Assembly (NCBI GenBank): GCA_009773185.1
Contig: WPIF01000022.1
Location: 1 to 57,194 of the forward strand
Direction of reading: 5' to 3'
From: Nitrospirota bacterium
GTDB taxonomy: Bacteria > Nitrospirota > Thermodesulfovibrionia > Thermodesulfovibrionales > UBA1546
Length of the DNA: 57,194 nt
The position numbers and the translations under genes were made by a program. Below are positions 1,265-48,899 of the stretch, in pieces. The notes under the pieces were generated by a model. It was not told the DNA's origin. It made no database searches and saw only the letters and a list, made by a program, of their open reading frames with translations. The first letter of the stretch is position 1. The number at the start of each line of letters is the position of its first letter.

Positions 1265-3907
1265 TTACAATAAGGCATCTATCATGTCTTTTAACATATT
1301 CTGGTCATATGGTTTTGTCAGATATGCCTTAAACCCGCAGGATTTGGAATCCGACAGGACAGCGTCTTCAGAATAACCGCTTGATACAACGGCTTTTACG
1401 CCTGAATCCAATCTTAAAAGTTCCTTAATGGCATCCTGCCCTCCCATTCCGCCCCTGACAGTTAAATCCAAAATGACTATATCGAATGGCTCTCCTGAGT
1501 CTTGGGCCTTTCTGTATTTTTCTATGGCCTCTTCTCCGTGTTCTGCAGTCTCAACTTCATGCCCCAAATCTTTTATCATTTTTGTATTTACCATTCTCAC
1601 AATCTCTTCATCGTCCATAAGAAGGATTTTCCCTTTCCTCAGAATACGGGCAACAGCCGGGCGAACCTCTTCCTGCTGTTCTGCTTCGATAGCAGGCAAA
1701 TAGATATAAAAAGTGCTCCCCTTGCCCGGTTCTGATTTCACATGTATCATCCCACCGTGATTTTTTACGATTGAAAATGATGTTGCAAGCCCAAGGCCGC
1801 TTCCTTTTTGTTTGGTTGTGAAATAAGGGTCAAATATTTTGGGCATCAATTCTTCCGGAATTCCAATCCCGTTATCCTGTATGGCAACCTCTACATATCT
1901 TCCCCTGGCTAAAGGCAACATATTACTGTACCCCGGCATTTCTATATTTTTTGCCCTGAGCATTACAACCCCTCCCTGAGGCATTGCCTGGTCAGCATTA
2001 AGAACAATATTCTGAATTACCTGACTTATCTGGCCTTCATCAGCCTCAACCGAGAGCAGGCCTTTGTCTATATCTATTTTAAATTTAGTCCGGGAACCGC
2101 TTAAGGCAAACTTGACCGAATTATTTATTACAGAATGCAGTGCTATTATGTTTTTGACCGGCGTCCCGCCTTTTGAAAACGTAAGAAGCTGATGAGTAAG
2201 GTTTACTGACATTTTAAGCGCCTTTTCAGCATGCTCAAGCATGGAAATGGTCTCTTCCGGGTCATTGGTCTTTGTTTTAGCCATGGAGATATAGCCAAAC
2301 ACTCCCATCAGCAGGTTATTGAAATCATGAGCAATGCCTCCGGCCAGGGTCCCGATGGCCTCAAGCTTCTGCGTCTTGAGCCGTTCCTCCTCGAGCAGAT
2401 ATTTTTCAGTTATGTTGTTGATTGTCTCAATTACGGATGTGACGTTTCCTGATGTGTCCTTGATGGGGAATGCCTTTGTCTCCACATAGAGTATGTGTCC
2501 ATTCTGGCCCTGATGTTTATGGAGCACTGCATGAGGTTCCCCGCTCGCAAAGGCCTGCCGGACTGCACACTCCTCGCCTTCCTCATAACAAGGGCGGTTG
2601 GCCTTGTGCGATATCTCGTAGCAGTGATTGCCTATGACCTTGTCACAGGGGAGGCCTGTCTGGCTACAGTATGCCTTATTAGCCGTCAGTATACGGAAAT
2701 CCTTGTTAATAACGGTAAACCCCTCATCAACGGTGTCAAGGATGTTCTTTGTGAAGTTTTCGCTTTCCCTGAGACGTTCCTCCGCTAGTTTGCGATCGGT
2801 GATGTCGATGGTAGTTGCGAGCTCTAAAACGATATCTCCTTTTTCATTTCGCAGTGGTACGGCATGAGTATATAACCAGAGAGGACGCCCCTTTAGCCCA
2901 ATCATTTTGAATTCAAGTGTGCCTGATTTGCCTTTGAATACATCATTTGTCAGGGATTTAAAGGCTTCACGATATTCTTCGGACACCAGCGGATATACGC
3001 ATTTGCCCTGTACCTGATCGAGCGATTCTGCTTCGATCATTTCCAGCCCCGCGCGGTTCATTCTCTGCAGAGACCCGTCTGCAGTAATGAGCTTAACTCA
3101 GGTAGGTGCTGTCTCTATGATTGTCTCCAGGAAATTCCAGCTTTCACGCAGCGCCTCATCTGCCTTCTTGCGCTCGGTCATGTCCGATGCAATGCTCATA
3201 ATTACTTCGCGGTCATTCCATAAGCCTGTCTTTGCAGAGACCCTGAGCGGAAACTTTGTGCCGTCTTTCCTGTAGTGAGCAACTTCAAAAGAAGCCTCGC
3301 CTTTTTCCCTGAGTTCCTTCATCCTTTGGGCTATAAGTTCTTTACTCGCCGGCGCATCGATTTCATGAAGATTCTTTGAAAGAAACTCTTCTTTTGTAAA
3401 ACCATGAAGATCGAATGTCTTCTGGTTTGCATAGAGGAAATTTCCCTCAAAATCATGGACTGTTATTGATGCAGGAGATGTGTCTATAAGTTCTGTGAAA
3501 ATGCGCCTGTTCTCATTGCTCTTAATGCTTTCTGTTATATCTTCTGCAATTCCGACAAGGCCGATTTTACTGCCTTTCTTGTCGTATAGCAACGCCGAAG
3601 ACATATTTATGTATATCAGGGTTCCGTCTTTTCGTTTCCGCAGCAGGTTTTTACCTGAATATGGCTTGTCTTCTTCCACCTGACCCCTGAGGGAGAGATA
3701 CTCGTCCTGCTTGTCTTCAGGCACAATAGGATTTGGTTTCCCCATAATCTCTTTTTTGGCCCAGCCAAAGATGTGTTCAGCCGCAGGATTCCATTCGATG
3801 ACCTTGCCGCTCATATCGAGCATTATGATTGCCATCGGGCTGTTTTCGATGAGGGCATTAAGTATGGTCGGGTCTGTTTTTTTAAACATTTTTTCTCTGG
3901 ATGTCAT
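1265..3907 (-). CDS. Multi-PAS hybrid sensor histidine kinase with in-frame TGA at codon 270 (candidate selenoprotein or nonsense-interrupted gene)
   Basis: Two ORFs (3907-3098 and 3061-1265) lie in the same frame and are separated only by one TGA (3100-3098) and 12 sense codons, so together they make one 880-codon gene. Order: PAS1 (about 10-125), PAS2 (about 135-250), PAS3 (about 258-380), PAS4 (about 385-505, Cys-rich), a HisKA region with H-box GIAHDFNNLL, an HATPase with N-box QNIVLNADQA and G-box GSGLGLATSF, and a C-terminal receiver with phospho-acceptor Asp in VILDLTVRGG. The TGA lies in the PAS3 motif ETAPT-x-VKLI, where homologues usually carry Cys, as I recall. The mRNA after the TGA folds into a 7-bp hairpin. 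Either UGA is read as selenocysteine, or this is a recent Cys-to-stop mutation, or a base-call error. No other frame damage is seen in 2.6 kb. It would phosphorelay from an unknown signal; no dedicated response regulator is adjacent. Confidence 0.75.
3065..3084 (-). promoter_or_regulatory. SECIS-like hairpin downstream of the kinase in-frame UGA
   Basis: In the mRNA sense, CUGCAGA pairs perfectly with UCUGCAG (7 bp) around the loop CGGGUC. The loop begins 20 nt after the UGA at 3100-3098. Bacterial SECIS elements lie just downstream of the UGA with a short stem and a G among the first loop bases. The E. coli fdhF element also carries GGUCU at its loop, and GGUCU occurs here too. The bulged U seen in the E. 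coli element is not evident. The structure lies inside the coding sequence, so it could also be chance. Confidence 0.45.
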
Positions 3908-47854: not shown

Positions 47855-48015
47855 AACCAAGGAGGGGAGTTAATACCAGCCCAACCAAAAGCTCCCCTCC
47901 TGTTTTAGGAGGGGATGAAGGGGTGGTAAGTGGGAAGCTGATTTTTGACATCCCAATATTTATGCAACTATCAAGGTTAATTGTAGCGCGTGCCCGCAAG
48001 GGCGGGGCTTTGTGT
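47855..48015. repeat. GC-rich dispersed repeat, copy A
   Basis: This 161-bp block matches copy B (48595-48793) almost perfectly, except for a 38-bp segment present only in B. It contains the palindrome CTCCCCTCCTGTTTTAGGAG, the GGGGTGGTAAGTGGGAA block and a GCCCGCAAGGGC hairpin. The ATG-starting frame inside it is shared by both copies but is not credible as a gene. Confidence 0.85.
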
Positions 48016-48043
48016 ATAAGATGCTTTAGGGTATATTTTTATC

Positions 48044-48442
48044 ATGAAGAATATAAAAGGGATTATACTATTAGCTATCCTGATCATATCATTCACAACA
48101 GTCAATGTCTTTGCAAAAAATGTCTCATTCACGCAGGATGACAGGGACAGACTTATAAGGGTTGAAGCAAGACTTGACGAAGGGATCAAGGCGGTCAATC
48201 AAAGGATTGATGATGTAAAAGGAGAAATTCAGGCATTAAGAGAACTTGTTTATGTTGTGGTAGCAGGCATTTTTGTTTTAATTGGCTTTGTAATCTGGGA
48301 CAGAAGAACTGCGCTTGCACCTGCCATAAGAAAAAATAAAGAGCTTGAAGAGAGAGAAGAACGTCTCGAAAAGGCGCTCCGAGAATATGCAAAGAAAGAG
48401 CCTGGACTTGCAGATATTTTAAAAAATCTTGGACTGATGTAA
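48044..48442 (+). CDS. Exported/membrane protein with coiled coil (unknown function)
   Basis: This 132-aa protein has a signal peptide or first TM helix (about 4-23, GIILLAILIISFTTVNVFA) and a coiled coil (about 30-67, DDRDRLIRVEARLDEGIKAV). A TM helix (about 70-87) with VIWDRR at the cytoplasmic edge is followed by a charged helical tail ending KEPGLADILKNLGLM. The layout resembles small membrane-anchored periplasmic coiled-coil proteins. I do not recognise a named family. It lies between repeat copies A and B and is followed by a strong terminator. Confidence 0.65.
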   Translation: MKNIKGIILLAILIISFTTVNVFAKNVSFTQDDRDRLIRVEARLDEGIKAVNQRIDDVKGEIQALRELVYVVVAGIFVLIGFVIWDRRTALAPAIRKNKELEEREERLEKALREYAKKEPGLADILKNLGLM

Positions 48443-48537
48443 TTTCTGGCAACTATTGAGAATTGTAAAAAGCCTTTTCCTTACAAGAAAGATTATTCGC
48501 ATTCTCATACTCTTTGTTCCTGGAATTCAGCAGCATT

Positions 48538-48567
48538 AAAGCCCCGCCCGAAAGGGCGGGGCTTTTT
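48538..48567 (+). terminator. Rho-independent terminator
   Basis: GCCCCGCCC-GAAA-GGGCGGGGC forms a 9-bp stem, extendable by AAA/TTT, and is followed by a T-run. It lies about 96 bp after the stop of the 132-aa gene. Confidence 0.9.
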
Positions 48568-48594
48568 GTTACAAACCACCCCTAACCCCTCCTT

Positions 48595-48793
48595 AACCAA
48601 GGAGGGGAGTTAATACCAGCCCAACCAAAAGCTCCCCTCCTATTTTAGGAGGGGATGAAGGGGTGGTAAGTGGGAAAATGAGGGGTGTCCAAAGGAAGGG
48701 GTGGTAAGTGGGAAGCTGATTTTTGACATCCCAATATTTATGCAACTATCAAGGTTAATTGTAGCGCGTGCCCGCAAGGGCGGGGCTTTGTGT
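48595..48793. repeat. GC-rich dispersed repeat, copy B
   Basis: This 199-bp block is the same element as copy A plus a 38-bp insertion that duplicates the GGGGTGGTAAGTGGGAA tail. The 457-bp gap from 48443 to 48899 holds only the terminator at 48538, this repeat and AT-rich sequence before the lipoprotein gene. The 68-codon frame starting at 48701 is repeat translation. Confidence 0.85.
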
Positions 48794-48899
48794 GAAAAGG
48801 GGGGTAGGGGTTGTTATTTATTTGCTCTTTCTCATATTGAGTGGGTAGTCTTGTCTCCCTCCTATTGTCTTGATTCACTGAAAGTTGTTATCATAAAAT

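Follow-up and report, generated by a model that had tools for sequence, protein, structure and literature searches.

A histidine kinase gene in the draft genome of a Nitrospirota bacterium is broken once by a TGA, and the question that this locus raises is whether the codon ends the protein or is read as selenocysteine (Sec). We analyzed the whole surrounding stretch of 57,194 nucleotides (contig WPIF01000022.1, assembly GCA_009773185.1), which is referred to as the window. Positions 3907 to 1265 of the minus strand form a single frame of 881 codons including the stop, and its sole break is the TGA at 3100-3098. Two minus-strand ORFs share this frame, one of 269 amino acids (3098-3907) and one of 598 amino acids (1265-3061). 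The original prediction of a single TGA in an otherwise intact multi-PAS hybrid kinase of 880 codons, with the frame unchanged on both sides, was thus confirmed. Readthrough of the TGA gives a protein of 880 residues in which U is residue 270, within the sequence ETAPT-U-VKLI.

Pfam analysis of the readthrough product detected four PAS domains, HATPase_c and a receiver domain; HisKA scored just below its cut-off (25 versus 26.9 bits), and its phospho-His motif is present. HisKA, HATPase_c and receiver are therefore joined in one chain after readthrough, which is the layout of a hybrid histidine kinase. In a confident structure model (pLDDT 95), strand A-beta of the third PAS domain, termed Sec-PAS here, begins with U270. 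Fold searches with Sec-PAS returned generic PAS matches only, corresponding to an ordinary PAS fold with no ligand indicated, and no cofactor motif was recognized in the domain. The features of the gene are summarized in Table 1.

Table 1 Features of the kinase gene in the window.
Feature	Position	Strand	Basis or remark
Hybrid histidine kinase gene, UGA read through	1265..3907	(-)	880 codons
First PAS domain, residues 16-124	3536..3862	(-)	Pfam
Second PAS domain, about residues 132-248	3164..3514	(-)	One of four Pfam PAS stretches; limits approximate, set by eye
Sec-PAS domain (third PAS)	2771..3145	(-)	Alignment and structure model, pLDDT 95.4
In-frame UGA, codon 270, predicted selenocysteine	3098..3100	(-)	Aligned to invariant Cys; UGA in 12 further distinct sequences
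SECIS-like hairpin	3065..3084	(-)	5' arm 3084-3078, loop CGGGUC 3077-3072, 3' arm 3071-3065
Fourth PAS domain, Cys-rich (CYEISHKANRPCYEEGEEC)	2402..2740	(-)	Pfam and sequence
HisKA domain, phospho-accepting His in AHDFNNLL	2165..2353	(-)	Pfam
HATPase_c domain	1691..2041	(-)	Pfam
Response regulator receiver domain	1280..1627	(-)	Pfam

TGA is a normal stop codon in the window, where it ends 17 of the 42 long ORFs. The kinase frame extends 610 codons past its TGA, and no other TGA-terminated long ORF extends for more than 20 codons. A general change of the code, with TGA as a sense codon, was rejected on these grounds. Elsewhere in the window, positions 47855-48818 hold two families of intergenic direct repeats of 124 and 87 nt, 90-97% identical and about 0.75 kb apart, which contain an inverted GGAGGGGAG/CTCCCCTCC element.

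The same gene is present in a second genome of the genus (G001), with 90% protein identity, a synonymous divergence of about 0.2 and the UGA kept. NG86 dN/dS between the two genes was 0.078/0.256 (about 0.3) before the UGA and 0.035/0.186 (about 0.2) after it, pointing to purifying selection on both sides of the codon. Of about 2,640 sites, 200 (7.6%) differ between the genes, yet none of the differences lies in the stretch that starts 12 nt upstream of the UGA and runs well beyond a hairpin that follows it. By simple arithmetic, a change-free stretch of about 60 nt has a probability of less than 1% at the overall rate of divergence. Just before the UGA, codons 243-264 (window 3116-3181) show a different pattern, with non-synonymous changes in 11 of 22 codons, followed by 22 codons that are almost the same in both genes. 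Recombination of domains at the PAS boundary, or gene conversion there, is perhaps the origin of this block.

To collect relatives, 396 genomes of the host phylum were searched with only the PAS domain as the query, and named genomes were scanned for a pattern; all compared sequences come from draft genomes or MAGs. The scan of genome contigs gave 20 stretches, of which seven were true Sec-PAS matches. The rest, from Acidimicrobiaceae/Ferrithrix, Actinobacteria, Selenomonadaceae, Desulfovibrio, Elusimicrobiales, Tissierellia and Fukatsuia, had short open frames only and were discarded. Altogether, 13 distinct sequences carry UGA at the same aligned position, 12 of them in addition to the window gene, and essentially all are from Nitrospirota. 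Eight belong to a first subfamily: the window gene, its counterpart in G001, L077 (a Thermodesulfovibrionia MAG), L080 (Nitrospirae GWC2_42_7), G044, G293, a second gene of the window's own genome (G000) and a near-copy of the latter, which occurs in G001 and in an 'Omnitrophota' MAG and was counted once. Among the 35 members of this subfamily compared, the position is Cys in 27 and UGA in eight, with no third residue. The original prediction stated that relatives usually carry Cys here; in the alignment at residue 270 this held for every non-UGA homologue of the subfamily (TGC or TGT in 27/27).

A weak match, G257, which is 32% identical and has UGA at the aligned position, led to a second subfamily when its own domain was used as the query. 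Its motif is S-P-[TSN]-U-I-M-[LIS]-F, and UGA is found in G257, G105, G391, G301 and G162. The ten members without UGA have Cys (8/10) or Gly (2/10) and, given these two Gly, the Sec-site residue is apparently dispensable in some PAS domains of this kind. The Sec site is common to both subfamilies, whose domains have only about 30% identity otherwise. On a tree built after masking of this site, about five changes of the UGA label are required, and well-supported branches force no fewer than four of these. In 395 genomes from the phylum to which Desulfovibrio piger belongs, the domain was matched strongly only twice, each time without the stop, and no UGA form was found outside Nitrospirota except on one contig of the Omnitrophota MAG. 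This contig (L084) carries the near-copy of the second Nitrospirota gene; the MAG is 0.7 Mb in size and lacks SelB, and misbinning is likelier than transfer.

The hairpin behind the UGA was found exactly as originally described, with a perfect 7-bp stem (CUGCAGA/UCUGCAG) beginning 13 nt and a loop beginning 20 nt after the codon. Chance does not account for it, since an equally good hairpin at the right distance arises in only about 1% of recodings of the peptide with synonymous codons. The published model of the bacterial SECIS calls for a loop of 3-9 nt, a stem of 4-16 bp, a G at loop nucleotide 1 or 2, a spacing of 16-37 nt and an MFE of at most -7.5 kcal/mol (PMC13188914), and the window hairpin satisfies every constraint (loop 6, stem 7, loop start CG, 20 nt, -13.4 kcal/mol). 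When the criterion was a perfect stem of at least 6 bp and a distance of 17-25 nt from codon to loop, 12 of 13 UGA forms had such a hairpin versus 4 of 38 other sequences (Fisher p 1.3e-7, a guide only, as the rows are related). The perfect stem of L111 has only 5 bp, and the loop of L077, a UGA form, begins with AC and so lacks the early G that the model requires. After shuffling of synonymous codons, the hairpins of most UGA forms ranked in the best 1-5%. The hairpin is CUGCAGA/UCUGCAG around CGGGAC in the first subfamily and CAGGCAG/CUGCCUG around GGGCG or GGUCA in the second; the stem letters differ, and the position and G-rich loop are kept. In these comparisons, the hairpin tracks UGA and not family membership. 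The Cys form of G077 (TGT; L071:4289-4672, G077:C38) is nested among UGA forms and retains a perfect hairpin, an apparent case of a recent Sec-to-Cys change with a fossil SECIS. Such fossils have a precedent in the Cys forms of FdhA and a HesB-like protein (PMC1794560); G077 is alike in the kept hairpin but differs in that it is a PAS kinase.

A search of the window's own genome for selA, selB, selC and selD recovered all four. The tRNA-Sec has a UCA anticodon, a G73 discriminator and an encoded CCA, SelA and SelB are encoded, and SelD itself contains UGA. SelB was also found in all other tested genomes with UGA forms except the 0.7-Mb fragment that holds L084; that of G105 is partial, at a contig end. 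Because many genomes with Cys forms also carry SelB, it is necessary but does not discriminate between the forms. The absence of selA and selB from G077 was considered as loss of the Sec trait, and this was dropped since the draft still contains tRNA-Sec and a UGA-containing SelD; the two genes may merely be missing from the assembly. The own genome also encodes a tRNA-Cys (GCA) of long, tRNA-Sec-like shape (L002, G000:C18:32735-32827), which scored above the tRNA-Sec cut-off (51.7 bits) and looks like the selC* tRNA-Cys described previously (PMC7609411). Similar tRNA-Sec-shaped tRNA-Cys genes are present in G018 (L103) and G401 (L105).

Several readings of the locus other than Sec insertion have to be weighed. 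A pseudogene ended by a real stop, or a TGA introduced by a sequencing error, would agree with the two ORFs that a default gene caller gives and with the draft state of the assembly. However, the UGA is kept in the independently assembled congener together with purifying selection downstream, and 11 more distinct sequences have UGA exactly at the Cys position, each followed at SECIS distance by a hairpin with 5 bp or more. The recurrence in independent assemblies disposes of the fresh nonsense mutation or sequencing error named as alternatives in the original prediction, and the chance left to this reading is negligible. The UGA could also terminate the first protein of a split two-protein system, whose second half would be a separate kinase starting from the in-frame ATG at 3061. 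The 598-residue ORF fits such a start, and selection downstream would look identical, but the cut would fall within the first strand of a PAS domain, and the codons from the UGA to the ATG encode conserved PAS residues common to the Cys relatives. As UGA always replaces Cys and a SECIS-like hairpin accompanies the UGA forms, we consider a split system very improbable.

A different amino acid at the UGA is hard to reconcile with the tRNAs. The tRNA-Sec-shaped tRNA-Cys could suggest that the codon is read as Cys (or another amino acid) by a tRNA of the selC* type, and selC* tRNAs are known in Nitrospirae, some elsewhere having a UCA anticodon (PMC7609411). The selC*-like tRNA of this genome, however, carries GCA as its anticodon, which does not allow it to read UGA. 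A single tRNA with UCA scored over the cut-off, the tRNA-Sec with G73, and SelD of the same genome uses UGA as well. Such decoding is thus highly improbable. The remaining alternative accepts Sec and concerns its purpose: the main role of the codon might be to make the level of full-length kinase depend on the selenium supply, low selenium leaving a PAS-only fragment of 269 residues. Any Sec protein is truncated without selenium, and the UGA precedes the kinase domains in the UGA kinases. On the other side, most relatives have Cys at this site, which suggests a chemical role, and truncation comes with any early Sec codon, so selection for it is not needed. We regard supply control as the main role as unlikely.

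Considering these data together, Sec is almost certainly inserted at the UGA of the window kinase, and it is very probable, as judged from sequence comparison, that the product is a functional PAS sensor kinase with Sec encoded by the UGA. SelB carrying Sec-tRNA-Sec would bind the hairpin and decode the UGA. Sec270 would then stand in for the Cys with which the first beta strand of this PAS subfamily otherwise invariably begins. An invariant Cys with repeated Cys/Sec exchange is typical of a reactive or metal-binding residue, and the selenol would most likely be the reactive or the metal- or cofactor-binding group of the sensor. Selenols are more acidic than thiols and are oxidized more readily and reversibly. 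Compared with Cys, the selenol would sense oxidation faster and reversibly or bind soft metals more strongly, and the Cys-rich PAS domain that comes next may relay the state of the selenol to the kinase and receiver. A redox- or metal-sensing role of the selenol has, in our estimate, an even chance of being correct. In a broader and slightly more doubtful proposal, Sec would be the signal-sensing atom of Nitrospirota PAS sensors, occupying a single structural site in both subfamilies and having repeatedly switched with Cys, and selenium chemistry (perhaps also selenium supply, via truncation at the UGA) would directly control two-component signaling.

Sec-PAS occurs in hybrid HisKA kinases (the window and G044), in a HisKA kinase (G105) and in a HisKA_2 kinase with membrane segments (G257). 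The second Sec-PAS gene of the own genome (G000:C1:39864-40238; L067:3544-4482) encodes a small membrane protein with membrane segments, Sec-PAS and a C-terminal CxxC...CxxC tail. Since these architectures are unrelated, Sec-PAS behaves as a module. This second gene adjoins an RseC-like gene and is also present in G001 (L093). A Cys-rich PAS domain follows Sec-PAS in the proteins of the window, G105 and G162. The C/H-rich motif CYEISHKANRPCYEEGEEC of the fourth PAS domain in the window is common to the UGA kinases of G105 and G162, and this domain may bind a metal or an Fe-S cluster.

A 2026 inventory lists 119 prokaryotic selenoprotein families, most of which are thiol oxidoreductases or metal enzymes, and its entire table has no entry for a PAS protein, histidine kinase or other signal-transduction sensor (PMC13188914). 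The deep-Sep list contains no PAS or sensor-kinase family (PMC12013277), and our text searches of the literature, subscription papers excluded, found no PAS or kinase selenoprotein. Within these searches, Sec in a kinase input domain would, if true, be the first case in signal transduction. Such a Sec also points to chemical reactivity of the conserved Cys in the PAS subfamily, providing a handle on what these orphan sensors detect. Sec and Cys have switched naturally in these proteins, in one case with a fossil SECIS left behind, and the switches are matched pairs for asking why Sec is used. Sec-PAS proteins are probably misannotated wherever they are found, because gene callers split them in two.

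The window protein resembles the SelB- and SECIS-dependent bacterial selenoproteins (PMC13188914) in its UGA at a Cys position, bSECIS-type hairpin, Sec machinery and Cys homologues, but differs from them in being a PAS sensor kinase. It shares with PAS hybrid histidine kinases (Pfam PAS_4/PAS_9, HisKA, HATPase_c and Response_reg) the complete domain order and the ordinary PAS fold (pLDDT 95), and has a predicted Sec instead of the conserved Cys in the P-x-C-V-K motif. By analogy with LOV domains (Cys-flavin adduct), NifL (FAD) and heme PAS domains, which have the same fold, it would place a reactive center within the PAS domain of a signaling protein. The adduct-forming Cys of LOV is located elsewhere in the PAS fold, whereas the Cys or Sec described here opens strand A-beta. 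We conclude that the putative Sec-containing PAS sensors represent a new, unlisted selenoprotein family, in which the decoding mechanism is already known and the class of protein is new.
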